From IMG/VR virus record IMGVR_UViG_3300046463_000264, positions 1 through 41,346 of that record: 41,346 nt of DNA, one strand, 5' to 3'. This DNA is from a virus. Positions 7,196-29,048 of the stretch are shown here, piece after piece. How positions within the stretch are numbered: the first letter of the stretch is position 1; each line of letters starts with the position of its first letter. The notes under the pieces are model-generated. The model ran no database searches. It saw only the letters and a list, made by a program, of their open reading frames with translations, and was not told the DNA's origin. A program made the translations under genes and the position numbers.

Positions 7196-7225
7196 TATGT
7201 CGTACTTGAGGGCCTCAAATCACAA
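7196..7225 (-). promoter_or_regulatory. TTGTGA-class promoter P1 (late structural operon)
   Basis: Minus strand: TTGTGATT at the upstream end, an 18-base spacer after TTGTGA, then GACATATAA preceded by C. It points toward terS, and all head, tail and holin genes down to 30532 lie downstream on the same strand, so it is the best candidate for the main late promoter. Confidence 0.75.
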
Positions 7226-7267
7226 TGAATTTTCAAAATATTTTAAAAATATTTCAAGTTTCTCTTT

Positions 7268-7297
7268 TCGGTCGCCAAAAGTCACCAAAAGTCACAA
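7268..7297 (-). promoter_or_regulatory. Weak extra TTGTGA-class site
   Basis: TTGTGA, 18 bases, then GACCGA preceded by GC, on the minus strand 72 bases upstream of P1. Spacing is right, but the second box departs from GACATA and the first lacks the following AT. It could be a weak tandem late promoter. Confidence 0.35.
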
Positions 7298-7333
7298 GAA
7301 TTTCAGACAAAAAGAAACCTCCAAAACCCAATG

Positions 7334-7422
7334 GTATCAAGGCTTTGTCTCTTATAGTTTCTTAATCATATATATTTTTTTAAAAAGTTATATGTATATA
7401 TAATAAAGAGTAATAAATAGAT
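7334..7422. repeat. AT-rich inverted repeat, left copy
   Basis: This stretch matches, in inverted orientation, 24653-24738. Shared blocks in the same order are GTATCAAGG, TATAGTTTCTTAATCA (16 of 16), TTTAAAAAGTT then TATGTATATATA (23 of 24 overall), and AAATAGAT. Both copies lie just upstream of a TTGTGA-class promoter (P1 here, P10 there) and in the same orientation relative to it. Possible roles are upstream promoter element, replication origin or recombination site. Confidence 0.7.
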
Positions 7423-7564
7423 AGTCTTATACAGTAATAGTTTTCAAGAAAAACATGTGTTTTAGCAACATCCCCTTTGAAGCCGTATGTGATAAGGGTT
7501 TTGCTGGTTTTAGTCCTGGTGACAATCATGAAACCAAATAAGTAAGAAAAAGAGACTTATCTTG

Positions 7565-7594
7565 TTGTGAATTTACGTTCTTCAATACGACACC
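7565..7594 (+). promoter_or_regulatory. TTGTGA-class promoter P2 (HNH endonuclease)
   Basis: TTGTGAAT, 18 bases after TTGTGA, then GACACCTATA preceded by C. It ends 34 bases before the HNH gene at 7629. Confidence 0.65.
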
Positions 7595-7628
7595 TATACC
7601 GAGAATATCGGGACAGGTGGGAATGTGA

Positions 7629-8303
7629 ATGACAGAAGGTAAGGTTTGTAAAAGTTGTGGTGAATTCAAAAGTTTTGATAATTACTATAAGCATAATACT
7701 TACAAAGACGGTTATTGGTCAAAATGTAAGGTTTGTCTAAAACAACGACACTTAGACACGTATGAAAGGAAAACTGAAAAGAAGTTTGATGAAAACGGCC
7801 GGGTATGTTCAAAGTGTAATGAATATAAAACTTGGGATAATTATTATAAAGATATTCACAGATCAACGGGATATAAACATGTTTGTAAAGATTGCCAGAT
7901 TCCTTTGGACGCTATTGTCCGTAAGAGATATAGAGAAAACAATCTTGAACAATGCCGTGAACGTGAAAAGACTTTCAGACAATCAGAAGCCGGGCAAGAA
8001 ACAATATATAGAAAAAATATGAAAAGACGTTCGCAAAAAGCAAACGTTAGATTTACAAAACATCAACGCAAAGAGATTCTTGAAAGAGACAATTATATAT
8101 GTCAATGTTGTGGAATTATTGTTCATGATGAAAGAATAAACACACCCGACAAAGCCCACATTGATCATATTCTCCCTTTAAATGCTGATGGTAGTTCTGA
8201 ACTAGATAATTTGCAAACTCTTTGTAGAACATGTAACACTAGCAAAGGTGCGAAGGCTATTTCAAATGAAAATTTATTAGAATTAATTTTGCAAAACCAT
8301 TGA
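7629..8303 (+). CDS. HNH endonuclease with two N-terminal zinc ribbons
   Basis: The 224-residue product has two CxxC...CxxC ribbons (KVCKSCGEFKSFDNYY...CKVC at about 6-37, and RVCSKCNEYKTWDNYY...CKDC at 60-90). A C-terminal HNH domain follows: ILERDNYICQCCGI, then AHIDHILPLNADG with the catalytic His pair, then LQTLCRTCNTSKGA. Such proteins are free-standing homing nucleases or packaging-associated nucleases. It is on the plus strand, opposite to its neighbours on the left, with its own promoter P2 and an AGGTGG ribosome site, so it looks like a separately acquired unit. Its stop codon overlaps the -35 box of early promoter E1. Confidence 0.85.
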   Translation: MTEGKVCKSCGEFKSFDNYYKHNTYKDGYWSKCKVCLKQRHLDTYERKTEKKFDENGRVCSKCNEYKTWDNYYKDIHRSTGYKHVCKDCQIPLDAIVRKRYRENNLEQCREREKTFRQSEAGQETIYRKNMKRRSQKANVRFTKHQRKEILERDNYICQCCGIIVHDERINTPDKAHIDHILPLNADGSSELDNLQTLCRTCNTSKGAKAISNENLLELILQNH

Positions 8304-8328
8304 CGTAAGAGTCTTACTGATGTATAAT
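8300..8328 (+). promoter_or_regulatory. Early sigma-A promoter E1
   Basis: TTGACG, 17 bases, TATAAT. The spacer begins with TAAGAGTCTTAC, making a GTAAGA/TCTTAC palindrome that overlaps the -35 region. The same arrangement is seen at E3. Predicted start of transcription is near 8335. Confidence 0.8.
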
Positions 8329-8334
8329 TAAGTT

Positions 8335-8399
8335 AATCAAATAGAAAACAAAGTCTCATCTCGAACCTTGAAAAAGGAGATCAGGTGGGACTTTTTTTG
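8335..8399 (+). ncRNA. Candidate short RNA or leader ending in a terminator
   Basis: From the predicted E1 start, only about 65 bases are transcribed before a strong terminator-like hairpin. AGTCTCAT (8352-8359) pairs with GTGGGACT (8385-8392), an inner CCTT/AAGG stem is possible, and a run of seven Ts follows. This would be a small stable RNA, or an attenuator for the small gene at 8427. No open reading frame fits inside it. Confidence 0.5.
8352..8398 (+). terminator. Rho-independent terminator or attenuator
   Basis: An 8-bp outer stem (two G-U pairs), an inner CCTTGAAAAAGG hairpin and TTTTTTT. It lies between promoter E1 and the small gene at 8427. Confidence 0.7.
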
Positions 8400-8426
8400 T
8401 CCCATTTTTCATTAAGGGAGGATTTA

Positions 8427-8543
8427 ATGTTCAAATTGTGGGGGCGGGGCATCCGTTGTCCACGGGCTGAAACTTCACGTACCCCGGGGGGTTACTTTCA
8501 AAGAAAACTGACAATTCAGAACATTCAATATATTATTAAATAA
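8427..8543 (+). CDS. Small basic protein from a GC-rich patch, unknown
   Basis: A 38-residue frame (MFKLWGRGIRCPRAETSRTP, then GGYFQRKLTIQNIQYIIK) follows a very strong AAGGGAGG ribosome site six bases before its ATG. Bases 8438-8491 are strikingly G- and C-rich (GGGGGCGGGGC, CCCCGGGGGG) in an otherwise AT-rich region. The product is arginine-rich. I do not recognise it. The base composition could reflect an RNA structure rather than the peptide. It lies downstream of promoter E1 and its attenuator-like terminator. Confidence 0.5.
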   Translation: MFKLWGRGIRCPRAETSRTPGGYFQRKLTIQNIQYIIK

Positions 8544-8628
8544 TAAATGAATTATGAATATTCAGACTATTATAGTAAGTGGTTTAAACTATTGCCAACA
8601 TATCATATCGGCCTGACTACCCCTACCA

Positions 8629-8664
8629 CTAAAACTAAAGGGACGTACTCATTTGAATACGTCC
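8629..8664 (-). terminator. Terminator of the HNH gene pair
   Basis: GGACGTA and TACGTCC form a 7-bp stem, followed on the minus strand by CTTTAGTTTTAG. It sits directly after the stop of the gene at 8675. The T-run is imperfect. Confidence 0.55.
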
Positions 8665-8674
8665 AGCGTTGTCA

Positions 8675-9157
8675 CTAAGATACACGTTCACGTTTAACAT
8701 GTTTCATATTCATGTTGGACACTGTACACTGTCCAACGTTCATAATGTTTGCTATATCTCGTTGAGTCAATTTAGTAGTACGAAGTAAAGTAATAATATC
8801 ACGATATACATTATCATTGTATTTATTGTTGTTTGAATGATGTCCGTTATCCCTAGCGTGTTTGACATTATCTAATTGTGTGCACCATTCTAAATTGTTA
8901 ACGTTATTATTCTTTTTATCTAAATCAATATGATTTACTACATCGCAATCACTTGGTTTATCAATGAAGGTTTCTGCAACAGCACGGTGAATATAGAAGT
9001 TATAATTCTTTCCGTTGATCTTATATCCAATTTGTAAATATCCTTTACCGTTGTCACAAGGTTTGCGTATTCGTTTCGTTTTAGCGTGGCGAACATTGCC
9101 TAGATTACTTATTTCATATTTGGATACTTTATTATAAACTTTCCATATTTCTACCAT
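8675..9157 (-). CDS. NUMOD4/HNH homing endonuclease
   Basis: The 160-residue product begins with a NUMOD4 motif (EIWKVYNKVSKYEISNLGNV), continues with an HNH_3-type core (FYIHRAVAETFIDKPSDCDVVNHIDLDKKNNNVNNLEW, where VVNHID carries the catalytic His), and ends with a small helix-turn-helix (LTQRDIANIMNVGQCTVSNM) that would read the target DNA. This architecture is standard for phage SPO1-type homing endonucleases. It overlaps the preceding HNH gene by 7 bases. The ribosome site AGGAGG lies about 12 bases upstream. Confidence 0.9.
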   Translation of the reverse strand: MVEIWKVYNKVSKYEISNLGNVRHAKTKRIRKPCDNGKGYLQIGYKINGKNYNFYIHRAVAETFIDKPSDCDVVNHIDLDKKNNNVNNLEWCTQLDNVKHARDNGHHSNNNKYNDNVYRDIITLLRTTKLTQRDIANIMNVGQCTVSNMNMKHVKRERVS

Positions 9158-9561
9158 GATATATATTTATCCTCCTGTTCTTTGGCTATATTTAGTAATA
9201 CAGATTTAGGTATGTCACCAGTTTCAGCCATAACGTGATGATATTTACATAGACTTATGAGATTGTTATTGTCATACATTCTCCGGATATTTTCAGAAAT
9301 AAAATAAATATGATGAACTTCAATTGTGTGCATATTATATCTGGTATCGGTGTTATATAGTTCACGTATGCAAACCTGACACAATCCTTTGTCACGTTTT
9401 CTTATCTCCAATGATTTACTTCTCCACCGTCTGGTATTACGTAACTTGTCAATGTCAGAACGTTCCTTTGTATAACCCTTGCCGTATTTGGTTTTTGGTT
9501 TTTTAGGACAGTCGAATGTCTTATCGTGTATGTTTCCACAATACGAACATGTCTTTAACAT
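9151..9561 (-). CDS. HNH endonuclease
   Basis: A 136-residue HNH protein. It opens with a CxxC ribbon (CSYCGNIHDKTFDC), has the basic helix RRWRSKSLEIRKRD and CQVC, then the core EVHHIYFI and NNLISLCKYHHVMAE. The second H of each HH pair fits the metal-binding site. It is similar in form to HK97 gp74-like nucleases that aid packaging, but its position with another HNH gene and its own promoter (P3) suggests a mobile nuclease. ATG 9561 follows a GGAAGTG ribosome site. Confidence 0.85.
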   Translation of the reverse strand: MLKTCSYCGNIHDKTFDCPKKPKTKYGKGYTKERSDIDKLRNTRRWRSKSLEIRKRDKGLCQVCIRELYNTDTRYNMHTIEVHHIYFISENIRRMYDNNNLISLCKYHHVMAETGDIPKSVLLNIAKEQEDKYISW

Positions 9562-9583
9562 GGTTTCACTTCCTTTCTGTTCA

Positions 9584-9613
9584 TTTGTCGCAAATAAAAA
9601 AGACCATTCACAA
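9584..9613 (-). promoter_or_regulatory. TTGTGA-class promoter P3 (HNH pair), overlapping a terminator
   Basis: TTGTGAAT, 18 bases after TTGTGA, then GACAAATGAA preceded by GC. The TTGTGAAT box is part of the hairpin that terminates the lipoprotein operon, so terminator and promoter share bases. Confidence 0.65.
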
Positions 9614-9622
9614 TGAACGGTC
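9593..9622 (-). terminator. Terminator of the lipoprotein operon
   Basis: GACCGTTCA and TGAATGGTC form a 9-bp stem (one G-T pair) with a 3-base loop, followed on the minus strand by TTTTTTATTTG. Confidence 0.85.
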
Positions 9623-9630
9623 TCATTTAC

Positions 9631-10047: not shown

Positions 10048-10058
10048 TTAATTCACCC

Positions 10059-10655: not shown

Positions 10656-10701
10656 GACTGTTACCTTCCTTTGAATTAGTTATGTGTATGTTATTAAGCA
10701 C

Positions 10702-10730: not shown

Positions 10731-10779
10731 CGGGAACAGAAAGCGAACATACAAAAATAGGTGTAAAGTCACCAGTTTT

Positions 10780-11518: not shown

Positions 11519-11543
11519 TCTTTCACATTGCCCGTGTGCTTGT

Positions 11544-11823: not shown

Positions 11824-11830
11824 ATAGAAC

Positions 11831-11863: not shown

Positions 11864-12706
11864 TCACTTCACTAATACTCTATAATGTAATTGCTGAATG
11901 TTGTAACCACCAGCGTAAATTGTCTGGACGTGGACTGTTTTTATTTCACCTTTTACAAACCCATTTATTTCCATGTTGTCACCCATTTGAAGACCATAAG
12001 CGTCTATAATTTTACCAGCTTTTGCTTCAACCCGGGCAATCAGTTGTGCTTTGCGTCTTTCACCGTCTTTTTCAGCAATGTTCATGATCACCTGACGTTG
12101 TTGATCTTCTGTTCCGTACATTCTTTCAAGGATTGCAGCGTCACTTTTTGGGATTGAACGTTCAAATTCTCTTTTCTTTGCGTGTCTAATTTTCGCTTGA
12201 AAGCTGTCAAGTTCAACCCGGTTCAATTCACGGTTCAAGATTTCTTCAACCTGTTCGTCAGTCAATTGTCTTTGTAGATTATAATTCAAGATCATTTTCA
12301 AGTTTTCAGCGTTGATTTCATAATTTTCAAATCTGACAGCGTTGTATTTCTTTTTCAAGTTCATATAGAATTCGACACAACGTACTTTCCAGTTTTCAAT
12401 GAAAGCGTCAATTGCTTCAAGACCAGTTACTTCAGATTCTTTCTTTTCAGTTTCAGCAACTTTTGCGTCAATGTAAGCGACATACCCTTCAAGCTGTTCC
12501 TTCAATTCGGCATGAAGTGTTTGTGTTGCACCACCGATCACTTTTGCTTTTGCAATCATTCTGTCATGTCTTGCAATTGCTTCAATACAATTTTCACGGT
12601 AAGATTTCAGTTCTTCAAGATTCATGACTTCAACAGTGTGGTTAAACCTTTCATCATTTCGTTTCAAAACCAAAGCGTTCAATTGATCATTTGACAATTT
12701 TGTCAT
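11864..12706 (-). CDS. Early coiled-coil protein, unknown
   Basis: The 280-residue product is mostly helical. Residues 1-100 include RENCIEAIARHDRMIAKAKV and LHAELKEQLEGYVAYIDAKV, a middle part carries LTDEQVEEILNRELNRVELD, and the C-terminus (KAGKIIDAYGLQMGDNMEIN, then GFVKGEIKTVHVQTIYAGGY) forms a small beta domain. I do not recognise a function. The ATG at 12706 is nine bases from GGTGG; a TTG at 12715 is less likely. It has a clear early promoter (E3) and a terminator of its own, so it is a one-gene early unit and probably acts soon after infection. Confidence 0.8.
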   Translation of the reverse strand: MTKLSNDQLNALVLKRNDERFNHTVEVMNLEELKSYRENCIEAIARHDRMIAKAKVIGGATQTLHAELKEQLEGYVAYIDAKVAETEKKESEVTGLEAIDAFIENWKVRCVEFYMNLKKKYNAVRFENYEINAENLKMILNYNLQRQLTDEQVEEILNRELNRVELDSFQAKIRHAKKREFERSIPKSDAAILERMYGTEDQQRQVIMNIAEKDGERRKAQLIARVEAKAGKIIDAYGLQMGDNMEINGFVKGEIKTVHVQTIYAGGYNIQQLHYRVLVK

Positions 12707-12749
12707 GTGGGACAACCACCTTTTTATAATGTATTATTTAACTATCCTT

Positions 12750-12778
12750 ATTATATCATGGTAAGAATCTTACGTCAA
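12750..12778 (-). promoter_or_regulatory. Early sigma-A promoter E3
   Basis: TTGACG, 17 bases, TATAAT. The spacer starts TAAGATTCTTAC, giving the same GTAAGA/TCTTAC palindrome as E1. The start of transcription should be near 12743. Confidence 0.85.
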
Positions 12779-13477: not shown

Positions 13478-14017
13478 TTAATCTCTTACCGTAAAACATA
13501 CGTCAATTATATCATTCACAATTTCCCATTCTTCAGTCTTATTACCTTTGACCAGTGAGTTCTTCCGTGCCCACTTTTCCCACTTGGAAATTTTGTCACG
13601 TAAACCATCCAGATCAATAGGAATTAAATCACTGATTTGAATTTCACCATCAATACCAGTTGAACCAACAATGACCAATTTTCCAGGCTGATCTGTATTG
13701 CCTTCAATGAAAAATGTGGTTGTCCTTTGAAACCTTGCTTGCCTGACAGCTTTCATTGTTTGCCCCCGGTTCATTTTGAATAAAGAACGTTTAAACTCCA
13801 AATTCAATGAATGACCGTCAATTTCAACATGTGCGTCAATGTCAGAAAAAGCAGTCCTCTTTGGTAAAACTTCAGATAGTGGATTGAGTGACCAGAAACC
13901 TTCAATCCATTTTTGAACGCTTTTTATATTGTTCATATTGAAATAAAATTGTTCCAGTTGTTCGCCATTTTCATCCATGACCAAAACAGTTCGTTGTCCA
14001 TGTGCGTCCTTCCTCAT
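13478..14017 (-). CDS. PD-(D/E)XK-type nuclease
   Basis: The core FSDIDAHVEIDGHSLNLEFK followed by RSLFKMNRGQTMKAVRQARF shows the Asp ... Glu-x-Lys pattern of the PD-(D/E)XK nuclease fold, with a Gln downstream. TTTFFIEGNTD is the next strand. Phage members resolve Holliday junctions or trim DNA ends during recombination. It follows the dNMP kinase but has its own promoter P4. An upstream ATG at 14035 would be only about eight bases from the predicted transcript start and lacks a ribosome site, so I prefer ATG 14017, eight bases after GGGG. Specific activity is unproven. Confidence 0.7.
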   Translation of the reverse strand: MRKDAHGQRTVLVMDENGEQLEQFYFNMNNIKSVQKWIEGFWSLNPLSEVLPKRTAFSDIDAHVEIDGHSLNLEFKRSLFKMNRGQTMKAVRQARFQRTTTFFIEGNTDQPGKLVIVGSTGIDGEIQISDLIPIDLDGLRDKISKWEKWARKNSLVKGNKTEEWEIVNDIIDVCFTVRD

Positions 14018-14049
14018 TACAGTAACCCCAATCATTAATTATTTGGTTA

Positions 14050-14079
14050 CATGTCGGAATGAAGACGGAATATTCACAA
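14050..14079 (-). promoter_or_regulatory. TTGTGA-class promoter P4 (nuclease)
   Basis: TTGTGAAT, 18 bases after TTGTGA, then GACATGTAACC preceded by CC. It begins at the T-run of the kinase terminator. Confidence 0.8.
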
Positions 14080-14112
14080 CAAAACAGACAGGATTTAGTT
14101 TCCTGTCTGTTT
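14078..14112 (-). terminator. Terminator built from the end of the kinase gene
   Basis: A perfect 12-bp stem (AAACAGACAGGA with TCCTGTCTGTTT) and 7-base loop, followed by TTTTGTTGTG. The last kinase codons and its stop are inside the hairpin, and the T-run passes directly into promoter P4. A near-copy lies at 14890-14921. Confidence 0.9.
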
Positions 14113-14646
14113 CAAAAGTCCGTCAAGCAAAAATTCAACCTGTTCTTTGGTGTTTTGTAAGTCCAACATGTTCCAAATAATGTATCGACAATGAATAGTT
14201 TCAATCTTGCGTTCTGAAGGGTTCACAGGTTGCCAGCTTTTATCACCCTTTGCCCGGTCTTGTCTCAATTCCTTTGGTGCATAGACTTTTATAAGAATGA
14301 ATCCGTTATCCAGTGCCCATTGTGCTTCATTTGGCTGTCTCACGTCCGTTATGACAAAGTTATCAATCCCAAGTGTTAATGATCTTTTATATTTCAAATT
14401 AACAGCTTTCACCCACATGTCCGTTTCAATCTGACGGCCCAATTCACCAAAGGTTTCATACCATTCACGGGGTTTACCTTCTATAATTGAAGCTTCTGGA
14501 AATGCCGAATACAGTCTATGTTTTAAATCATCACCAAAGGCAAGACGTGTCGTTTGTCCGTGGCCGTTTGTTTGGAGATATGATTTGATCATTTCAAAGA
14601 CAGAATCCTTGCCGACCCTGGTTAGTCCTACCAATGCTATTTTCAT
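14095..14646 (-). CDS. Deoxynucleoside monophosphate kinase
   Basis: The 183-residue product has a P-loop at the N-terminus (MKIALVGLTRVGKDSVFEMI), a LAFGDDLKHRLYSAFPEA substrate-lid region and NFVITDVRQPNEAQW, the ITDVR.PNE motif typical of the phage dNMP kinase family. It phosphorylates dNMPs to dNDPs and feeds the polymerase along with ThyX and the reductase. The start overlaps the stop of the small gene upstream (ATGA). Its last codons (KQTGN) form the terminator stem. Confidence 0.88.
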   Translation of the reverse strand: MKIALVGLTRVGKDSVFEMIKSYLQTNGHGQTTRLAFGDDLKHRLYSAFPEASIIEGKPREWYETFGELGRQIETDMWVKAVNLKYKRSLTLGIDNFVITDVRQPNEAQWALDNGFILIKVYAPKELRQDRAKGDKSWQPVNPSERKIETIHCRYIIWNMLDLQNTKEQVEFLLDGLLKQTGN

Positions 14647-14828
14647 TGTTTCAATTCCTTTGCAACAATCTTGAAATCATCTTTGCTTTGATCGTAATGA
14701 TTCAAATTCCAAAATCCTGTGAGTGTTGTTCTGTCCACAAAATAGCAACAATGTGGATTTTCCTGTTGAACCTTTTTCATTAAAGCCGTGAACAATTCGT
14801 CCGTTGTAGCCTCATTAAGTGTTTTCAT
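14643..14828 (-). CDS. Small protein upstream of the kinase, unknown
   Basis: A 61-residue product (MKTLNEATTDELFTALMKKV, then QQENPHCCYFVDRTTLTGFW) with a short acidic N-terminus and helix. AAAGGAT stands six bases from ATG 14828; the ATG at 14837 lies in the ribosome site itself. It is translationally coupled to the kinase. Function unknown. Confidence 0.65.
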   Translation of the reverse strand: MKTLNEATTDELFTALMKKVQQENPHCCYFVDRTTLTGFWNLNHYDQSKDDFKIVAKELKQ

Positions 14829-14859
14829 AACAATCATCCTTTTAATTTCGTCTTGGCTA

Positions 14860-14889
14860 TGTGTCGATACGGGACTTAAAAATTCACAA
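14860..14889 (-). promoter_or_regulatory. TTGTGA-class promoter P5 (kinase operon)
   Basis: TTGTGAAT, 18 bases after TTGTGA, then GACACATAGCC preceded by TC. It follows directly on a terminator, as P4 does. Confidence 0.75.
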
Positions 14890-15525: not shown

Positions 15526-17340
15526 TTACTTCTCCATATAAACCTTTGCTGTCCTACCATTAACCTTCTTGTCCTTCACCACAAGTCCAAGTTCAATCTG
15601 GACTGATTCTTTCAATATTTTCTTAGATTGAACAGCACCTTCGCCAAAGTTTTCTTCGGCCCACGTTACATATTCTTCATAAATTTCTGGTGGTCTTTTT
15701 CCAATGAAATCTTCTTTCACCCGATCACGTATAAATGTCAAAGTCCCGTTGTTTTCTTCATGATATTTTTCATTATAATCTGTCACCTTTTCCGAATCTG
15801 TGAATCCGTGTTTTTCATATAATCTAAAGTAAGCTTCAAAGATGAGTTTCAACCAATATTCCAATGCTTCCGGGGTTGTAAGCTTTGTTATAAATGTCGG
15901 GTCTTTCTTTGTTGGTTTTGTAAACATAGGCATCCAGCAAACCCGTCTTTTGTATGAATCAGACTTTTCAAAGGACTTCAACAGGTGATTTGAAGTAAAG
16001 ATCAAAGACGTTGTGACAACCGTTTCTGTTGATTGTTCAAAGAGTCTTCTCATTGCCACAAAGTCGCAAGTGCTGACGTTTTTTAATACCTTCATTTGCT
16101 TTTCATTTATTGCCCGGTCTTCTATATCGTCACCCAGGTTTACCAGCTTATTGGCCATGCTGGTGAAGTATGATTCCTTTGTCATTTCTTCAGGTGACAA
16201 TGAAGCACAATTTTCAGCACCAAGAATCTTTCTAATGATTGTCAAAAGCGTTCCTTTACCATTTCCACCGTCACCAATGAAGATGAAGAATTTTGCAAGT
16301 TGCCTTTTGAATTCAGCATTTGTTATTAAAGTATGGGCCATTGATTCAAGAACTAACTTTCTGTAATTAGCGTCACCTTCTGTCAGTTTGTCAAGATAGT
16401 TGTCAACCATTTCAACAGGTTCAGCGTCCGGGTTGTATTCCACATTAACAAAATACGGTGTGAAGTCAGTTGAATCTATTTCAATGAATTGGCCGTTTCG
16501 CAGGATACCATTTTTGAATTTAATGTCAAACCCGTTTTCTGGTTCAACAACATTGTAAAGCCTGTACTCCATTTGCTTTATGACTTCATCAATATACCTT
16601 GTTTTCTGTCCTTCCAGTTGTTCGGAAATCAGTGTTTTGAATTCGCTGTCAGCTTTGTATCTTATTCCGTCATAGGTGTAAAGAATGTCACCATACTTGC
16701 ACACCCTTAATTTCATAATAAGTTGTTTTGCAACTTCAGCTTCACCATCTTTTTCAGCAAGGATTTCTTCTTCCCGTGTGACAACTTGGAATTCGTCTTC
16801 ATTGAGTGGTTGTGCAAAAACGTCAGTATTGATGAATCTTAAGACTTGTTTGCTGTTTTCAAGACTGTTTATTTTAAACTTCCAGGCATGAAGTTTCTGA
16901 TTTCTTCCGTCCCCATCATCCAAACCAAGTAAGCTGTCACCTTTGATGGGCTTGAAAAAAGCTGGTAAATCTTCCCGAACACCTTCATTGTCAATGTCAC
17001 GTATTTTCCCATTTTGCTTTATGGTGATTGCTTTTGTATTCTTTATGTGTTTAAATTCTACCGGGAAACCAAAGGCACACAATGACATTGCACCCTTGAA
17101 CGCTTTTGGTTTCTTGAAGTAAATATGTGCACCACGATTGGTCCACACGACCTGACTGTTAATGTTAAATATTCTTATCAAGTTTCTGATTGAATCCTTT
17201 TTTAAGCTGTCTATATCGATTATCAAATCTTCTTCTGTCAGGACATAACCAGCGTCCGTGAAGCTGTCATGAAACTCTGACACGTCAGCCAGCTTTGAAG
17301 CGTACTTCTCACCGTTTTTGAATTCCATATAAATAGGCAT
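15526..17340 (-). CDS. Primase-helicase: PrimPol-like domain fused to SF3 helicase
   Basis: This 604-residue protein starts and unwinds replication. The N-terminal third resembles archaeo-eukaryotic primases: LIIDIDS (D42, D44) as the first metal motif, RGAHIYF (H72) as the second and VEFKHIKNTKAITI as the third. A D5-type middle domain follows (FDIKFKNGILRNGQFIEI). The SF3 helicase has Walker A GDGGNGKGT at about 356-364, Walker B KLVNLGDDIED near 398-408 and the sensor SLIFTSNHLL. ATG 17340 follows GGGGG by seven bases. It has its own promoter (P6) and would partner the family B polymerase upstream. Confidence 0.92.
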   Translation of the reverse strand: MPIYMEFKNGEKYASKLADVSEFHDSFTDAGYVLTEEDLIIDIDSLKKDSIRNLIRIFNINSQVVWTNRGAHIYFKKPKAFKGAMSLCAFGFPVEFKHIKNTKAITIKQNGKIRDIDNEGVREDLPAFFKPIKGDSLLGLDDGDGRNQKLHAWKFKINSLENSKQVLRFINTDVFAQPLNEDEFQVVTREEEILAEKDGEAEVAKQLIMKLRVCKYGDILYTYDGIRYKADSEFKTLISEQLEGQKTRYIDEVIKQMEYRLYNVVEPENGFDIKFKNGILRNGQFIEIDSTDFTPYFVNVEYNPDAEPVEMVDNYLDKLTEGDANYRKLVLESMAHTLITNAEFKRQLAKFFIFIGDGGNGKGTLLTIIRKILGAENCASLSPEEMTKESYFTSMANKLVNLGDDIEDRAINEKQMKVLKNVSTCDFVAMRRLFEQSTETVVTTSLIFTSNHLLKSFEKSDSYKRRVCWMPMFTKPTKKDPTFITKLTTPEALEYWLKLIFEAYFRLYEKHGFTDSEKVTDYNEKYHEENNGTLTFIRDRVKEDFIGKRPPEIYEEYVTWAEENFGEGAVQSKKILKESVQIELGLVVKDKKVNGRTAKVYMEK

Positions 17341-17371
17341 ATCATAACCCCCAACTTTGTTTACTTGGTTA

Positions 17372-17401
17372 CATGTCGGAAAAGGGGTAAAATATTCACA
17401 A
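17372..17401 (-). promoter_or_regulatory. TTGTGA-class promoter P6 (primase-helicase)
   Basis: TTGTGAATATT, 18 bases after TTGTGA, then GACATGTAACC preceded by CC. The second box and downstream bases match P4 over 13 bases. It lies seven bases after a terminator. Confidence 0.8.
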
Positions 17402-18138: not shown

Positions 18139-18249
18139 TTAATTTCCTCCAATTGTTAGATTCATAGTCCAAAAGATAACTTCAAACACGACAACCCAAA
18201 TGATTATAGAAACCAAACTACCAATGATTAAACCCTTGAAAAACTTCAT
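18139..18249 (-). CDS. 36-residue membrane peptide
   Basis: MKFFKGLIIGSLVSIIIWVV then VFEVIFWTMNLTIGGN: a basic start and one long hydrophobic segment at 5-28. Its ATG overlaps the polymerase stop (ATGA), so it is translated by coupling. It might tether replication proteins to the membrane, but that is speculation. Confidence 0.6.
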   Translation of the reverse strand: MKFFKGLIIGSLVSIIIWVVVFEVIFWTMNLTIGGN

Positions 18250-19934: not shown

Positions 19935-20527
19935 AGTGCACCCCATTGGTCAGCCATTGCTTGTGCTATTCCTTCAAACGTTTTTGCACGATTTTTCTGC
20001 CTATCTTTTCCACCTTTGTTGAACCAGTTACCAGATGTCCTGGTACTTTCCCTTATGTCTACAACATTAGTAGATTGTAATTTCGGAAGATTTTTCAACC
20101 AAAGACAAGTTCTTTTTTGGAATGGTTCACCAAATTGAAACGGCTGCACTATCTGGTCATAAGGTTGTAATTCATAAACTTTACTTGGTACAGGGTTTTC
20201 AACGGCAATTTTTTCAATGGGTAGATTCATTAAAAGCATGAAAAATTCTTTTGCTTCCATTCCTTTTGAAAATCTATCTTCATTTAGTACACCTTTGGGA
20301 TATAAATGTCTTGCACCAGCGTTACTCAAATATGTGCAAGGTGGGTGGCAAATTGCCAAATCGAATTGCTGCCAATATTCCATTGGTAAAGCACTTGCGT
20401 CACCTTGAACATGTGGACCAAAATCAGATTCACTTGGGATAATGTCAAAGCTGATTGCGTCATGACCGGCTTTGATAAAAGCGTCACGCACCGTTCCAGA
20501 GTATTCACAAATTACTGCAACTTTCAT
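19931..20527 (-). CDS. C5-cytosine-methyltransferase-like protein
   Basis: The 198-residue product has an N-terminal cofactor motif (VAVICEYSGTVRDAFIKAGH), the loop CHPPCTYLSNAGARH with the Pro-Pro-Cys catalytic site, and IAVENPVPS with the Glu-Asn-Pro motif. Together these point to a small phage C5 DNA methyltransferase. The target-recognition region is short. It could modify phage DNA against host restriction, but relatives of this size are often only predicted enzymes. ATG 20527 has AAGGAG eight bases upstream. It is the first gene of the polymerase operon behind promoter P7. Confidence 0.8.
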   Translation of the reverse strand: MKVAVICEYSGTVRDAFIKAGHDAISFDIIPSESDFGPHVQGDASALPMEYWQQFDLAICHPPCTYLSNAGARHLYPKGVLNEDRFSKGMEAKEFFMLLMNLPIEKIAVENPVPSKVYELQPYDQIVQPFQFGEPFQKRTCLWLKNLPKLQSTNVVDIRESTRTSGNWFNKGGKDRQKNRAKTFEGIAQAMADQWGAL

Positions 20528-20567
20528 TTTCAGCACTCCTTCAATTGTTTAATTGACTTTCTGGTTA

Positions 20568-20597
20568 TAAGTCGCTTGAAGGAATATAGATTCACAA
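20568..20597 (-). promoter_or_regulatory. TTGTGA-class promoter P7 (methyltransferase-polymerase operon)
   Basis: TTGTGAAT, 18 bases after TTGTGA, then GACTTATAACC preceded by GC. A terminator ends just before it. Confidence 0.8.
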
Positions 20598-20644: not shown

Positions 20645-21286
20645 CTATTTCTTTTTCTTTGGAAACGGCTTCACATCTATCCAAGTACCAGACTTTCCAT
20701 TGAATGCCCATTTCTTGATTTCTACCATTACAGTTTTTCCAACTAATTGGTCTTTGTCAGAAATGTCAATATTGAACTTTTCCTTGAATTTGTCATACTT
20801 CTTTTTCCGTTGAATGGAATCAACCAGGAATTTATTTTGAGATTCAATAAACTTTGAATACCTCATTGGTGATTCATACGTTTCACCATCATATTCAAAA
20901 CGAATCTTCACGGCCTGTCCATCATCAATAACTTCTGTGATCTCAACGGACATAATCTGTCCAATCATATCTTCTTCAAACTTTGCAACTTGGGCCACTT
21001 CAAAGAGTGAATTAAAATTGTCATAACAATAAATGTCTTTCCTGTCGCCAACGGCCTGTCCAAGATTTTCAAAAGTTAGGCCAAAATGATCTTGACACCA
21101 TTCTTCCACTTTTTTAGCTTTTTCTTCATCATCAATAAACTTACCAGATTCTTTGTCATAAACCTGTTTGTTAAATGACACTTCACGAATTTCACCGTTG
21201 TCAGCGTCCAGGAATGTCAGTGTTGCTTTCTTGTCTTCAATTTTTACGTCAACCAGTTCAAGTTGTTCGAGTACTTGTTTTGCCAT
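20645..21286 (-). CDS. Replication-region protein, possible ssDNA-binding protein
   Basis: The 213-residue product is beta-rich with a basic end. It begins MAKQVLEQLELVDVKIEDKK and has ATLTFLDADNGEIREVSFNK, then IGQIMSVEITEVIDDGQAVK, and ends VKPFPKKKK. GKTVMVEIKKW looks like an OB-fold strand. ATG 21286 with AAGGAAAATTC upstream is clearly better than the long frame that extends to 21427. It has its own promoter (P8) and terminator and lies between the recombination-type DUF1351 gene and the polymerase operon, where single-strand-binding proteins often lie. The role is inferred. Confidence 0.65.
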   Translation of the reverse strand: MAKQVLEQLELVDVKIEDKKATLTFLDADNGEIREVSFNKQVYDKESGKFIDDEEKAKKVEEWCQDHFGLTFENLGQAVGDRKDIYCYDNFNSLFEVAQVAKFEEDMIGQIMSVEITEVIDDGQAVKIRFEYDGETYESPMRYSKFIESQNKFLVDSIQRKKKYDKFKEKFNIDISDKDQLVGKTVMVEIKKWAFNGKSGTWIDVKPFPKKKK

Positions 21287-21335
21287 GAATTTTCCTTCTT
21301 TCTTGTATTGGTATGGTTTTGGCTTGATACGTTTA

Positions 21336-21365
21336 TATGTCGCACTTAAACCCCTAAAATCACAA
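21336..21365 (-). promoter_or_regulatory. TTGTGA-class promoter P8
   Basis: TTGTGATT, 18 bases after TTGTGA, then GACATATAAAC preceded by GC. It fits between the stop of the DUF1351 gene and ATG 21286. Confidence 0.8.
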
Positions 21366-22227: not shown

Positions 22228-22368
22228 TCAAACACCCCTTGTGGTCATAGACCAAAGATATTTATTAAGACAATCTTCACAACAAAATTTTCCATAAGGC
22301 TTTTTGACGGGCGATATGTCTTTCAAATCCTGGTAACACCATTCACAATAATTTGTGTTGCATGTCAT
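22228..22368 (-). CDS. 46-residue zinc-ribbon protein
   Basis: MTCNTNYCEWCYQDLKDISP then VKKPYGKFCCEDCLNKYLWS contains CxxC and CCxxC pairs, enough for one zinc site. Its start overlaps the stop of the metallohydrolase gene (TGATG), so it is probably coupled to it. Function unknown. Confidence 0.65.
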   Translation of the reverse strand: MTCNTNYCEWCYQDLKDISPVKKPYGKFCCEDCLNKYLWSMTTRGV

Positions 22369-22991
22369 CAATAAAACCTACTTGACATGTGCAATTCAAT
22401 AAACTTTGAATCAACAGACCGTCTATTCATATAGTAGAAAGCTTTGGCCGTTTGCGTGGACATATGTCTTTTTGCAGAAGCTATAACGTCATATCCAAAG
22501 TGTCTCTTGTCAGCAAGGTCAAGAAGCTTTTTAACATCATGATTGGATTCAAGGAATAGATAATCATATGTTTTTATTGGTGCGTGTCTCAAATCACTTG
22601 TATCCGTGCAATAGATGATTGTATTTCCTTTCATTGCAAAAACAAACCCATAGCACAATACATCATGAATGGCCTTGAAAGGTGTAACAACATAACCGTC
22701 ATGAATTTCAAAAGGAATATTTTCATTGACTACTTCAATAAAAGCTTCTTTCTGGAAAGACTGGACAACTTCATAATTTCCGTAAATCTTGATGTGTGGA
22801 AACAACTTGACAATCTGTTTCAGTGTTGCAACCCGGACATGATCGCTATGAATATGAGTAATGAGAATGGTTTTTATATCATATAACTTTGATTTTATGA
22901 GTTTAAAAGGAACACCAATGTCAATCATAATGTCTTCGATGATTACACAGTTTCCACGACTTCCGGTGCTGATTATCTCGTATTCTAACAA
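22368..22991 (-). CDS. Metallo-beta-lactamase-fold hydrolase
   Basis: The 207-residue product opens EIISTGSRGNCVIIEDIMID, has the zinc motif ILITHIHSDHVRV and later TIIYCTDTSDL and FLESNHD, the usual metal ligands of the fold. It resembles phage and YycJ-like members that cut nucleic acids. The YycJ-type GSRGN opening supports a DNA- or RNA-processing role. The start is TTG 22991, overlapping the end of the HNH gene by 7 bases. Confidence 0.85.
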   Translation of the reverse strand: MLEYEIISTGSRGNCVIIEDIMIDIGVPFKLIKSKLYDIKTILITHIHSDHVRVATLKQIVKLFPHIKIYGNYEVVQSFQKEAFIEVVNENIPFEIHDGYVVTPFKAIHDVLCYGFVFAMKGNTIIYCTDTSDLRHAPIKTYDYLFLESNHDVKKLLDLADKRHFGYDVIASAKRHMSTQTAKAFYYMNRRSVDSKFIELHMSSRFY

Positions 22992-23428
22992 ATGCCTTGC
23001 ACCTTCTTTTTATAATGTTTTTTATGTCTTATAGAATTGCATTTTTTACACTCTCTCCAACCTTCTTTCGTAAAGCGAGTGTTTTCTAACGTATATTCAT
23101 GTCCATGTTTACAGAACTTTTGTGATTTCTTCAATTTACCCGTCACTTCACCACCCACCCCACGTCGAACATTTTCACCACGTGTCACTACTTCCAAGTG
23201 GTCCGGGTTGCAACAAATTCTATTTTTGCAAAGATGATCAATGACAAGTCCGTTTGGAATTTCACCTTTTAAAACAATATACGCAAGACGGTGTACGCGT
23301 CTTTCTTTAAAGTGTTTAGACGTAATGAGTCCATAACCGTTTTCATTTGTACAGCCAGTCCATTCCCAGCAACCGTTGTCAGCTTCAAAGTCTATCTTGT
23401 CTAAAAAATTGGATAAACTATTTAACAA
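22985..23428 (-). CDS. HNH homing endonuclease
   Basis: The 147-residue product has CWEWTGCTNENGYGLI, ERRVHRLAYIVLKGEIPNGL and VIDHLCKNRICCNPDHLEVV, the HNH_3-type core with the ViDH catalytic pair. A C-terminal ribbon (FCKHGHEYTLENTRF, CKKC) may help bind DNA. It is first in the P9 operon, upstream of the metallohydrolase, a common place for a homing gene to insert. The start is TTG 23428 with AAGGAG 11 bases upstream. Confidence 0.88.
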   Translation of the reverse strand: MLNSLSNFLDKIDFEADNGCWEWTGCTNENGYGLITSKHFKERRVHRLAYIVLKGEIPNGLVIDHLCKNRICCNPDHLEVVTRGENVRRGVGGEVTGKLKKSQKFCKHGHEYTLENTRFTKEGWRECKKCNSIRHKKHYKKKVQGIC

Positions 23429-23467
23429 TGATTTTTCTTCTCCTTCCTTTAATCGGCTTTCTGTTTT

Positions 23468-23497
23468 TATGTCGTACTAATGGGAAGGAATTCACAA
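23468..23497 (-). promoter_or_regulatory. TTGTGA-class promoter P9
   Basis: TTGTGAAT, 18 bases after TTGTGA, then GACATAAAAAC preceded by AC. It serves the HNH, metallohydrolase, zinc-ribbon and DUF1351 genes. Confidence 0.8.
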
Positions 23498-23858: not shown

Positions 23859-23888
23859 TTGACGGGTACGCAACCATTCAAGTATAAT
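23859..23888 (+). promoter_or_regulatory. Early sigma-A promoter E5
   Basis: TTGACG, 18 bases, TATAAT, upstream of the gene at 23953. It lacks the GTAAGA element of E1-E4. Confidence 0.7.
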
Positions 23889-23930: not shown

Positions 23931-23952
23931 TACATATAAGGTGTTGAAACAA

Positions 23953-24552
23953 ATGGAAATCTTGACGAGTGCTGAACTTATATTCGACAACGGAAACCAA
24001 CATATGACAACAAAATTCCGTTTTTTAGGCAAAGCTGAACAAACTGTTGTAAAGTACATAATTTCAAAGCTTCGTAAATACCACGGCCAGTTTTTTGAAA
24101 AGTATAAATCCATTGCTGAAGAATTAAAGATCAGCACCAAAACTGTTCAACGTGCCGTCAAACATGCTGAACAACTTGCCATTTTCCAAGTTTCAGAACG
24201 TTTTGAACCAACACTTGATGGTAAAATGAGAAAGACAACAAACCTTATCAACCTATTACCTTATGCACCTTTTGAATTCATTAATGGTGTGATTAAGGTT
24301 GTCAGGACTGTCAAGAAACATGCTGTGAAGCTGGTTGACATGGCAAAGAAAGCACTGGAAGGAAAGACAAAAGAATCACCAGCACCGTCAAAGAAGCTGT
24401 ATTCCAAAAAGCCTATTCGCACGGAATTACTACCAGACTGGTTTGAGGAAGATACAAATGAAGAATCACCAGCAATACCAACACCAACATATGCTGATCT
24501 TGAAGCAAAGAAACGGGCAATTGAAGAAAAGTTGAAAGCTTTCAGAAACTAA
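23953..24552 (+). CDS. Winged-helix protein, possible replication initiator
   Basis: The 199-residue product has a winged helix at about 35-90 (YHGQFFEKYKSIAEELKIST then KTVQRAVKHAEQLAIFQVSE). A basic segment (VRTVKKHAVKLVDMAKKALE) and a charged tail follow. Such HTH_36-like proteins act as initiators or regulators in Firmicutes phages and plasmids. Here it stands apart from the replication operon, next to an AT-rich region. ATG 23953 lies nine bases after AAGGTG; a GTG at 23941 overlaps that site. The initiator role is a guess. Confidence 0.65.
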   Translation: MEILTSAELIFDNGNQHMTTKFRFLGKAEQTVVKYIISKLRKYHGQFFEKYKSIAEELKISTKTVQRAVKHAEQLAIFQVSERFEPTLDGKMRKTTNLINLLPYAPFEFINGVIKVVRTVKKHAVKLVDMAKKALEGKTKESPAPSKKLYSKKPIRTELLPDWFEEDTNEESPAIPTPTYADLEAKKRAIEEKLKAFRN

Positions 24553-24803: not shown

Positions 24804-24833
24804 TTGTGATTATGGTGGTGTGTTTACGACAGA
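24804..24833 (+). promoter_or_regulatory. TTGTGA-class promoter P10 (thyX-nrdJ operon)
   Basis: TTGTGATT, 18 bases after TTGTGA, then GACAGATAA preceded by AC. A second TTGTGA ten bases further upstream has no partner box. Confidence 0.65.
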
Positions 24834-24861
24834 TAATCACCAAGGCAAAACAGGAAAGGAA

Positions 24862-25566: not shown

Positions 25567-25571
25567 CTGTC

Positions 25572-25721: not shown

Positions 25722-25724
25722 ATC

Positions 25725-27938
25725 ATGACAGAACGTCTTCAAGGTTTTCACAGAAAACTATATTTAACTCGATACGCACGCAAGTCAATGGACAAAGCAA
25801 AATACATTATTCCAGGTTCAACAGTTGTCACACTGGTCAAGGAAGGAAAATATCCGATTCGTGAAATTGCAACGGTCAAGTCAGTGAAAGACAACATTGT
25901 ATATATGGAACTCCAAACGGCTGACGGTTTTAATTTTCAAATTGGTGACAGCTTCACACAACGAATTGAACTGGTTGACGCACTACTTGAAAGTGAATAT
26001 GAACAGACTGCAAACCGTGTTGCAATGAGAATTGCCAGTGTAGAACCAACAGCAAAACAATATGAGAAGTCCTACAAGGCTTTCAAACATGTCATTGAAA
26101 ACTTCCTTCTTGTACCTTCTGGACGTATCTTGACCGGTGCTGGTGATGAAGCTGAAGTGACATTGTTCAACTGTTATGTGGTAGCCGTTGACCCTGCCCC
26201 CTGGTCAATAGAGAAAGGCCGGGATAGTAGACAGGCTATTGCTTATCATCAAGCCAAAATAGAAGAAATAATGGCCCGTGGTGGTGGTGTTGGAACTAAC
26301 CTGGACGTGTTCAGACCACGTTATTCTGGACTTTCCAAAACAAAAGGTCAAAGTGCTGGTGCTGTCTTTATTGGCAACAGGTTCAGTGGTTCCACAGAAT
26401 TCATCAATCAAGGAAACAGACGTGGTGCACAAATGCTGACTATTTCCGATTGGCACGGTGATGTATTTTATACCAATGATATAAATTCACCTGATTACAA
26501 TGAAGACTTCATTGGTGCAAAAAGGAAACCGGGATTCATGGAAGGTAACAACTCTTCAGTCCTTATCTCTGATGAATTTATGTTCGCTGTTGAAAATGAT
26601 CTTGATTGGACTTTGAGACACCCAAATACTAAACACCCAAAATATGATTCTGATTGGGATGGTGATCTTTACAAGTGGATTAATAAATATGGTCAACTTA
26701 AAGATTCAGTAACAATAATTCGTACTATCAAAGCCCGTGACATGTGGGACAAGTTGCAAGAATCAAACCATGCAAGTGCTGAACCGGGAATCATCTTTAT
26801 TGATGAGGTGAACAAACAACATAATGGTTGGTATCTTGGAAAGGTTAATGCTACAAACCCATGTGGGGAACAACCTATTTTGCCGAATTCTACTTGTAAT
26901 CTATCAGCAATTAATTTTGGACGTATGTTGAAAGTGGTTGGTGAAGACGATTTTGGTAAATTGTATGAAATTGATTGGAATCTATTAAAATCAACAATTC
27001 ATACTGGAATAAGATTTCTGGACAATGTCATTGACGCAACATTCTATTTTGACAAGGACATGAAAGAATGGCAACAAGGTGAACGACGTGTTGGTTTAGG
27101 TGGTTTAGGTGTCGCCGACCTCTTTATTGCTTTACGTGTTCCATATGGTTCAGAAGAAGGAAATGAAATCTTTGAAAAGTTGATGAAGTTTTTACGGGAT
27201 GAATCTTACAAAGCTTCTGTTGATCTTGCCAAAGAGAAGGGTTCATTTCCATTCTTTGACCGGGTGAAATACTCTCAATCTGGTTTTGTCAAGCGTCTTC
27301 CAAGAGAAATCAAAGAAGCAATATGGACGCATGGAATAAGAAATTTAACGTGCAACACATTTGCACCAACAGGAACAACCGGGTCTTTGACACCTTCCCT
27401 TTTGGACATTAACGGTTCAGTCTCAACGGGAATTGAACCCCATTTTGCAATGAAGTATAACCGTCTTTCAAGGATAGGTTCAACGGTACAATATGCTGGT
27501 GTGGCAAAGGCATTTATGGATAACAACCCTACTTTGACCGAACTTCCAGACTATTTTGTTGGTTCAATGGATTTACAACCAATTCAACATGTTACTGTCC
27601 AGGGAATTGCACAAAAGTATATTGATAGTGCAATCAGTAAGACTGTAAACGCACCAAACAATTATACAGTTGAACAATGTGCTGAAGTTTACCTTCAATT
27701 GTATAAACATGGTTGTAAAGGTGGGACGATTTACCGGGATGGAAGCCGGGATGAACAGATTTTAAGTCTTGCTGAAAACAATGAACAAGTTGAAAATGAA
27801 GCACCCGTTGTTGAGGAAGTAAAGAAGAAAGGTAAATATGATAATTGGGAATGTGGCAATTGTGGAAGCACCCATTTCCATATGGTTGAAGGTTGCCCCC
27901 AATGTGACGATTGTGGAAGTCAAAGCTGTTCAATATAA
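25725..27938 (+). CDS. nrdJ: Class II (B12-dependent) ribonucleotide reductase
   Basis: The 737-residue product makes deoxynucleotides using adenosylcobalamin. Key residues are C150 in FNCYV and C391 in STCNL as the redox pair, and N378, C380 and E382 in NPCGEQ as the radical site. FAPTGTTGSL is the phosphate-binding loop. The C-terminal tail has CGNCGS, CPQCDDCGSQSCSI: a zinc-ribbon-like part plus the cysteines that recharge the active site. About residues 25-85 (YIIPGSTVVTLVKEG onward) form an extra beta-rich N-terminal domain. B12 dependence lets it work without oxygen and without a small subunit. It is co-transcribed with thyX. Confidence 0.95.
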   Translation: MTERLQGFHRKLYLTRYARKSMDKAKYIIPGSTVVTLVKEGKYPIREIATVKSVKDNIVYMELQTADGFNFQIGDSFTQRIELVDALLESEYEQTANRVAMRIASVEPTAKQYEKSYKAFKHVIENFLLVPSGRILTGAGDEAEVTLFNCYVVAVDPAPWSIEKGRDSRQAIAYHQAKIEEIMARGGGVGTNLDVFRPRYSGLSKTKGQSAGAVFIGNRFSGSTEFINQGNRRGAQMLTISDWHGDVFYTNDINSPDYNEDFIGAKRKPGFMEGNNSSVLISDEFMFAVENDLDWTLRHPNTKHPKYDSDWDGDLYKWINKYGQLKDSVTIIRTIKARDMWDKLQESNHASAEPGIIFIDEVNKQHNGWYLGKVNATNPCGEQPILPNSTCNLSAINFGRMLKVVGEDDFGKLYEIDWNLLKSTIHTGIRFLDNVIDATFYFDKDMKEWQQGERRVGLGGLGVADLFIALRVPYGSEEGNEIFEKLMKFLRDESYKASVDLAKEKGSFPFFDRVKYSQSGFVKRLPREIKEAIWTHGIRNLTCNTFAPTGTTGSLTPSLLDINGSVSTGIEPHFAMKYNRLSRIGSTVQYAGVAKAFMDNNPTLTELPDYFVGSMDLQPIQHVTVQGIAQKYIDSAISKTVNAPNNYTVEQCAEVYLQLYKHGCKGGTIYRDGSRDEQILSLAENNEQVENEAPVVEEVKKKGKYDNWECGNCGSTHFHMVEGCPQCDDCGSQSCSI

Positions 27939-27951
27939 GGAGGATGATAAA

Positions 27952-28098
27952 ATGATAACTAACAAATTCATTTTAATATTATGTTCATTGAAACCAAGAT
28001 TACTAGAAAAGAGGCATGTTAACTTTAGATATTGGGAAATCAAAGTTTTCTGGTTGGGAAAAAAGAGAGTTTTAAAGATCGAGGACACCAGTTTTTAA
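27952..28098 (+). CDS. 48-residue basic protein, unknown
   Basis: MITNKFILILCSLKPRLLEK then RHVNFRYWEIKVFWLGKKRV. A perfect AAGGAGG site precedes its ATG. It is basic and beta-like. It is the last gene of the thyX-nrdJ operon and not recognised. Confidence 0.6.
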   Translation: MITNKFILILCSLKPRLLEKRHVNFRYWEIKVFWLGKKRVLKIEDTSF

Positions 28099-28127
28099 AT
28101 ATGTATTCAATACAAGATCAACACTAC

Positions 28128-28158
28128 AATAACCCCTATTTTTAGGGGTTATTTTTTT
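28128..28158 (+). terminator. Terminator of the thyX-nrdJ operon
   Basis: AATAACCCCTA and TAGGGGTTATT form an 11-bp stem with a T-rich loop and a T-run. P11 starts 18 bases later. Confidence 0.92.
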
Positions 28159-28175
28159 GTCTTTTTTAATTTCTG

Positions 28176-28205
28176 TTGTGAATCCCTGACTTTCAAAGCG
28201 ACATA
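28176..28205 (+). promoter_or_regulatory. TTGTGA-class promoter P11 (sigma-like gene)
   Basis: TTGTGAAT, 18 bases after TTGTGA, then GACATATAACC preceded by GC: a full match to the consensus. If the sigma-like protein reads this class, its own gene is under positive feedback. Confidence 0.8.
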
Positions 28206-28245
28206 TAACCAGATATTTGACGCAAGTTAGTCAAAACCTTGTCAA

Positions 28246-28315
28246 GTTATATCTTCATTAGAATTCAGTTAGAGTCAGATTACAAAAAAGTGTCGAATTC
28301 TAATGAACTTATAAC
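28246..28315. repeat. Large inverted repeat in the sigma-gene leader
   Basis: Two 21-base arms (28246-28266 and 28295-28315) match with two adjacent mismatches; the inner 13 bases (TTCATTAGAATTC with GAATTCTAATGAA) are perfect. The 28-base spacer has no T-run. In RNA this is a very stable hairpin; in DNA it could be a site for a dimeric protein. Confidence 0.8.
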
Positions 28316-28435
28316 GTCAAAAAGACCTTATTCGCCTTAATTGGAAAGTTTATCCATGGTGGCCATACCACTTAGAAGTTAAGATAAGATTAGTAAGAAA
28401 GTTATACAAAAATATAACCAAAGGGGAATGTAAAT

Positions 28436-28996
28436 ATGACTATTGCCTTAATACCAGTTGACGAATTTGGACAAGTTATTGTGTTTGAAACAACACGTTC
28501 AGCAAGAAAGATAGTTGCCAAGTATGGTATGAACCCAGAAGAATCAACGGAATTGACGTCTTTTCTCACAACGGAAATCTGGTCTGAACTACATAAAAAA
28601 AGAGAATTGCAAACATTGGCAATGGTCAGAAGATTAATAAAATTACGTCAAGTAGATTACTTCCGTAACAAGGGAAGGTTTGACAATCAGACCCCTTTTT
28701 GTGCCTTTGATCATGATTCAGAAAATTCTGGTGACGGTCAATCATCAAAAACTATGACTTTAGAAACTAGGGTCAAATCTAACGTAAACGTTGAAAGTGA
28801 AGTTCTTATGTCCAATGACTTACAATCTTTCCTTCTATCATTAAATACCCGACAACGGCAAATCTTAAACCTAATTAATCAAGGTTATGGGAATAATGAA
28901 ATTTGTCAGATTCTTGACGTTTCCATTAATACACCTAAAAACACCATGAAAAAAGTCAGAGAATTGGCACTTGCCTTTGGATTGAAAATTGCTTGA
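28436..28996 (+). CDS. Sigma-factor-like protein with region 4 helix-turn-helix
   Basis: The 186-residue product has a C-terminal sigma-70 region 4: LNTRQRQILNLINQGYGNNE then ICQILDVSINTPKNTMKKVR, at about 130-180. The middle part (STELTSFLTTEIWSELHKKR then ELQTLAMVRRLIKLRQVDYF, RNKGRF) resembles the helices of region 2. Between them is a linker of about 45 residues. Length suits a small ECF-type or phage sigma factor. It has a strong AAAGGGG site and its own TTGTGA-class promoter. The promoter family in this genome is its obvious target, although an anti-sigma or transcription activator role is possible. Confidence 0.7.
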   Translation: MTIALIPVDEFGQVIVFETTRSARKIVAKYGMNPEESTELTSFLTTEIWSELHKKRELQTLAMVRRLIKLRQVDYFRNKGRFDNQTPFCAFDHDSENSGDGQSSKTMTLETRVKSNVNVESEVLMSNDLQSFLLSLNTRQRQILNLINQGYGNNEICQILDVSINTPKNTMKKVRELALAFGLKIA

Positions 28997-29018
28997 TAGA
29001 TTGAAATAAGCTGATAGT

Positions 29019-29048
29019 TTGTGAATTTATCAGATTGATAGCGACATA
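29019..29048 (+). promoter_or_regulatory. TTGTGA-class promoter P12 (lysis operon)
   Basis: TTGTGAAT, 18 bases after TTGTGA, then GACATATAAGC preceded by GC. It starts 23 bases after the sigma-like gene and serves the genes from 29088 to the endolysin. Confidence 0.8.

Follow-up and report, generated by a model that had tools for sequence, protein, structure and literature searches.

The 41,346 nucleotides of viral DNA in IMG/VR record IMGVR_UViG_3300046463_000264 (positions 1 to 41,346, hereafter the window) carry 12 near-identical putative transcription start signals, and their distribution among related phages strongly suggests that this virus, which infects a Bacillus-like bacterium, reads them by a sigma factor of its own. 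We consider it very probable that the 12 sites form one promoter class, read by the host core RNA polymerase together with the product of a plus-strand gene at 28436-28996, a 186-residue protein that resembles extracytoplasmic function (ECF) sigma factors and is matched by sigma profiles. An earlier note made from the window sequence had proposed such a dedicated phage regulon, and comparison with related phages supports it, as the promoter family occurs only together with the gene and regions of the protein differ between phages in step with the two promoter boxes.

A promoter family with one spacing

On both strands of the window, TTGTGA-N18-GAC has 13 exact matches, compared to a mean of 0.49 (standard deviation 0.72) in 100 shuffles, among which the maximum was 3 and none reached 13. 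Twelve of these matches belong to a single class, TTGTGA(A/T)T-N15-CGACATATAA-nCA, with one spacing only, which bears out the 12 sites with an exact 18-base spacer that the earlier note had described. TTGTGA and CGACA are separated by 17 bases in 11 cases and by no other number between 12 and 25, and when all pairs of 5-mers with 10 to 25 bases between them were scanned, with no motif supplied, TGTGA-N17-CGACA came out on top for this genome, with 11 occurrences against 0.06 expected. None of the 12 sites departs from TTGTGA (columns 0-5), T (column 7) or CGAC (columns 23-26); the second box continues as ATATAA with few exceptions and is followed by a conserved CA at the position expected for the start site, and the bases separating the two boxes show no conservation across the 12 sites. 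The remaining match lies on the minus strand at 7271-7297, 72 bp further upstream than the site at 7225. It is without the T at column 7 and without the TATAA part, so that most of the second box is absent; it was excluded from the class as decayed or chance, and is perhaps a decayed duplicate of the late promoter.

Overlap of the 12 sites with host sigma-A promoters was rejected, since no sigma-A -10 box lies 16-18 bases after TTGTGA, where the hexamers are of the NCGACA, CGACAN or GACANN type; this hexamer check agrees with what had been claimed. As in the regulon of a phage-encoded sigma factor, the window family thus comprises multiple sites and is distinct from host promoters.

Placement of the sites and the genes behind them

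All 12 sites are oriented toward a gene. Position +1 was taken as the conserved CA about 35 bases past the first T, with TTGTGA as the -35 box and CGACATA at about -12 to -6, and on this basis the inferred start lies 17-44 nt from the start codon at ten sites. The other two have long leaders, of ~225 nt before the sigma-like gene and ~165 nt before the terminase operon (start codon 7025). Hairpins resembling intrinsic terminators were found just upstream of six of the 12 sites compared to 2.4% of random positions, as expected if the promoters open new transcription units.

The genes behind the sites were identified as those of replication, nucleotide, lysis and late operons and the sigma-like gene itself, in line with the targets named before. 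Eight of the putative promoters are on the minus strand. The one at 7190-7225 (TTGTGA-N17-CGACATATAA) precedes the terminase and structural (late) operon, 9578-9613 precedes an HNH endonuclease gene (9151-9561), 14044-14079, with a terminator-like hairpin upstream, precedes a gene of no assigned function (13478-14035), and 14854-14889 would serve a gene at 14643-14837 together with a deoxynucleoside monophosphate (dNMP) kinase gene (14095-14646). Further along, 17366-17401 stands before the DNA primase gene (15526-17340), 20562-20597, again with a hairpin upstream, before a DNA methyltransferase gene (19931-20536) and then the DNA polymerase gene (18246-19946), and two more sites, 21330-21365 and 23462-23497, before a PHROG 6479 gene (20645-21286) and before an HNH gene (22985-23428) followed by a gene for a hydrolase of metallo-beta-lactamase fold (22368-22991), respectively. 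The four on the plus strand are at 7565-7600, with a weaker second box (CGACACCTATA), before an endonuclease VII-like gene (7629-8303); at 24804-24839, likewise behind a hairpin, before the genes for thymidylate synthase ThyX and ribonucleotide reductase (25725-27938); at 28176-28211, upstream of the sigma-like gene; and at 29019-29054, before a small gene (29088-29246) and an operon ending with the endolysin gene (29851-30489).

Promoter families in phages with and without the gene

Homologues of the sigma-like protein were found in three related phages, here called G005 (IMGVR_UViG_2643221702_000002), G028 and G013, the latter two by searching terminase relatives with a two-sequence profile; a two-sequence profile search of genome contigs gave no match. 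The G028 homologue is also present in the genome of Paenibacillus sp. OV219 (G048). In G005, TGTGA paired with GGGATTAGAT came first in an unbiased scan, at six sites and with the register of the window family (TTGTGA...GGGATTAGAT). G028 has nine sites of the form (T/C)TGTGA-N16-GTGATTACACGG, a TTGTGA...GTGATTACACGG family, and G013, whose homologue is distant, has five sites TTGTGC-N16-(T/G)TGATA (TTGTGC...TTGATAAAG). A 25.6 kb fragment, G006, with a DNA polymerase ~72% identical to that of the window, carries four sites TTGTGCA-N15-(T/A)TGATA; its record is without the part of the genome where a sigma gene might lie, and it is not among the four sigma-bearing genomes counted below.

All four sigma-bearing genomes have a family in the same register. 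The 20 related genomes that lack the gene, among them those of Listeria phages P35 and P40 and Staphylococcus phage HHU-22, have none, and two further genomes scanned in addition to these 20 also showed no TTGTG family. A plain count of TTGTG(A/C)-N18-GA is too weak alone for this comparison, and the word-pair test was used instead. The earlier note had named equal use of the motif in phages lacking the gene as the outcome that would tell against its reading, and the comparison came out the other way. The Fisher value for family against gene, 9e-5, overstates independence because the sigma-bearing phages are related. Several control terminases are nearer to that of the window (~68%) than those of G005 and G028 (60-62%), and since motif-free genomes with nearer terminases exist, the motif follows the sigma gene and not overall similarity. 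In exact-motif scans of viral contigs, other records gave mostly single matches, which were taken as chance. As a separate observation, GAATC-N23-GATTC forms a strong inverted-repeat family in the genome of Listeria phage P40 (L011), with 10 copies against 0.11 expected.

Several targets recur among the phages. Orthologous genes are preceded by sites in at least two phages in the case of the primase (G028, G013 and G006), the dNMP kinase operon (G006 and G028), the gene at 9151-9561 (G006 and G013) and the small gene immediately downstream of the sigma gene (G005 and G028), and DNA polymerase, the hydrolase, ribonucleotide reductase and a DUF1351 gene are further targets shared by at least two phages. 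The terminase genes have a site upstream in all five genomes, and in three phages the leader of the late operon is at least 100 nt long (window 7026-7190, G006 after 12848, G013 after 19057), unlike those of other promoters. In G005 and G028 the promoter lies directly before the hydrolase gene and in the window the HNH gene stands between them, which suggests that an HNH gene was inserted in the stretch 22985-23497 and the promoter retained.

The sigma-like protein and its covariation with the boxes

The protein encoded at 28436-28996, which has no match among cultured phages, probably belongs to the sigma family, although its scores stay below curated thresholds. The TIGR02937 profile of ECF sigma factors aligns with residues 20-176 (E = 5e-6; 1.3e-7 for the best family member), a PHROG 1740 sigma profile matches at 1.2e-7, and Pfam Sigma70_r4_2 scores 24.4 bits (23.9 bits for the G028 homologue) against a cut-off of 25.7, while the Pfam scan gave no region 2 match. 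The family profile also matches a bona fide phage sigma factor, that of Geobacillus phage GBK1 (QHB48439.1), with 95% probability from region 2 onward, and the same GBK1 protein is a weak tblastn match to the G028 homologue. Among the annotated sigma factors of the searched phage collection, only one weak match to the family was found. Region 2 alone gives a confident three-helix model (predicted local distance difference test score 83); the whole-length model is poor, and sigma factors rank first among the PDB structures, with E values no better than 0.04. The earlier wording of a sigma-like protein is thus backed by consistent profile matches, which are sub-threshold and give no clear family match.

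The genome of GBK1, an unrelated phage, has no TTGTG promoter family. It was considered as a distant sigma-bearing phage with a family of its own and rejected: the five copies of its top pair, GTAAC-N17-TTAGT, lie on both strands and are grouped into two small clusters (L244 5595-5719 and 42991-43207), which is not the placement of operon promoters.

The two ends of the protein vary in parallel with the two boxes. The window, G005 and G028 all have TTGTGA, and their region 4 sequences are 59-62% identical to one another, against 33% identity to that of G013, which has TTGTGC. For region 2, identity is 59% in the pair G005 and G028, with GATTA common to both -10 boxes, and 29-33% when these two are compared with the window, whose box is CGACATATAA. 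This is the pattern predicted if region 4 reads the -35 box and region 2 the -10 box, and it is a correlation over four sequences. The homologue in G013 (L199:1477-2151), where the -35 box is TTGTGC, has an insertion of ~30 residues in region 4 and a different presumed recognition helix. We lean towards a promoter code that turns over in concert, in which almost every one of the 4-12 sites of a phage would carry a -10 box private to that phage and fitted to region 2 of its sigma factor, while the register and the -35 box, along with a large part of the operon set, would stay nearly fixed. Separately, the N-terminus of the G005 protein (L030:9107-9270) contains a duplicated NSKTFDAKVLNLDTKSCN, unseen in the window protein.

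Weighing of the sigma reading and its alternatives

Several results weigh against a sigma factor as reader of these promoters. All TIGR02937 and Pfam sigma scores of the family stay under the curated cut-offs, while GerE, a LuxR-type helix-turn-helix family, comes out just above its own, level with sigma region 4; the region 2 model has no significant structural match at the level of the fold; the homologue in G013 is distant, with its insertion in region 4; and the sigma-bearing phages, being related, are not four independent cases. No counterpart of the site at 28176 was found upstream of the sigma gene in G005, G028 or G013. This last result also limits the positive feedback that had been proposed, which the site upstream of the gene makes possible in the window phage and which is not conserved in the three relatives. 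In G005 and G028, TGGTAT(A/C)CT, resembling an extended -10 box, was noticed by eye ~70 bases before the sigma gene.

The GerE score, and the fact that most PDB sequence matches of the protein are LuxR-type helix-turn-helix domains, would suit an activator that binds TTGTGAAT and assists the host sigma-A enzyme at a -10 box inside CATATAAC, and TATAAC in the window is indeed similar to the sigma-A -10 box. The relatives, however, keep the register and not a sigma-A -10 box, G028 having GTGATTACACGG at nine of nine sites, and the second box, ~10 bases long and nearly invariant within a phage, differs between phages together with the N-terminal region of the protein, most of whose length (residues 20-176) is covered by the sigma profile, with the GBK1 match beginning in region 2. 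We therefore regard an activator as unlikely.

That a different phage protein, co-inherited with the sigma-like gene, reads the promoters is less likely still. In its favour, the phages with the motif are relatives that have other genes in common, and small genes of no assigned function exist; however, of the window genes only the sigma-like gene and that of ribonucleotide reductase occur in all three complete genomes with the motif (G005, G028 and G013) and in 0/20 controls, and with the reductase being an enzyme rather than a DNA-binding regulator, the sigma-like protein is the remaining candidate. The covariation, moreover, concerns regions of this very protein. Dispersed repeats, or binding sites for replication, packaging and the like in place of initiation, are scarcely credible, since the sites, dispersed and highly conserved within a genome as they are, are directional and non-palindromic, lie at promoter-like distances from genes and often behind a terminator, and are separated into two boxes by non-conserved bases, unlike a mobile repeat. 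Promoters of a T7-type single-subunit RNA polymerase were rejected because these form one continuous element, whereas the motif consists of two boxes and a spacer that is not conserved; no RNA polymerase match was found in Pfam and PHROG scans that covered part of the open reading frames of the window.

Proposed mechanism and genome context

With the phage sigma factor as reader, we infer core binding, start sites, timing and feedback along the following lines. The -35 box TTGTGA would be recognised by the C-terminal helix-turn-helix of the protein and CGACATATAA, around -10, by the region 2-like bundle at its N-terminus, and transcription would begin near the conserved CA, ~35 bases past the first T of TTGTGA. 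Early genes would be transcribed first by the host sigma-A enzyme, after which the phage sigma factor would activate the replication, nucleotide, lysis and late operons and, in the window phage, perhaps its own gene. Two matches to the host sigma-A consensus fit such an early class, one at 23859-23888 on the plus strand (11/12), probably the early promoter of 23941-24552, and one at 12750-12778 on the minus strand (11/12, with TG before the -10 box), probably that of 11864-12715, both assigned by consensus match.

The first and last 127 bases of the window (1-127 and 41220-41346) are an identical direct repeat, which indicates that the window is probably a complete, circularly closed phage assembly of ~41.2 kb, and the late operon is probably continuous across its ends. 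A search of the window against Rfam gave no match, a tRNA search found none, and megablast of 23 kb of it against phages gave no match.

Comparison with known phage sigma factors

To our knowledge, sigma factors with regulons of their own have been experimentally established in few phages. In Bacillus phage SPO1, a large myophage, a cascade of gp28 and gp33/gp34 redirects the core polymerase of a Bacillales host to distinct promoters, the middle ones reading AGGAGA / TTTNTTT; SPO1 differs from the window phage in its unrelated promoter sequences and its size and type. Bacterial ECF sigma factors (TIGR02937) resemble the window protein in its presumed two-domain layout, size, stringent bipartite promoters and a full-length profile match, with a score below the curated cut-off, and their promoters commonly carry a GAAC-type -35 box, unlike the TTGTG(A/C) found here.

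Salmonella phage 7-11 encodes a sigma factor, SaPh711_gp47, that has a region 4, comparable to the putative one of the window protein, and uses bipartite non-host promoters (PMC8948821). Its late promoters, GTAAtg-(16)-aCTA, are found at ~8 sites before operons and start transcription 6-9 bases from the second box, and 7-11 and phiEco32, much like the phages compared here, have promoters at similar genome positions with different sequences (PMC8948821). Phage 7-11 differs from the window in its boxes and spacing, in being an enterobacterial podophage and in being experimentally proven; likening the proteins by description, we take gp47 to be the closest analogue. Escherichia phage phiEco32 gp36 likewise directs the host core polymerase to a middle and late regulon, but from a single-element promoter, tAATGTAtA, and without homology to region 4 (PMC8948821), whereas the window has both boxes and a region 4-like domain. 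In the open-access literature, subscription papers being outside the search, we found no description of the TTGTG-promoter sigma family, which apparently represents an undescribed family of small tailed phages and prophages of Bacillales.

In these phages, one short gene seems to control nearly all expression after the early stage. As relatives have different -10 boxes and matching differences in region 2, the joint change of sigma factor and promoter can be tested by domain swaps, and the family offers candidate orthogonal sigma-promoter pairs for Bacillus. If the concerted turnover is true, it would constitute a natural series of mutually insulated sigma-promoter pairs.

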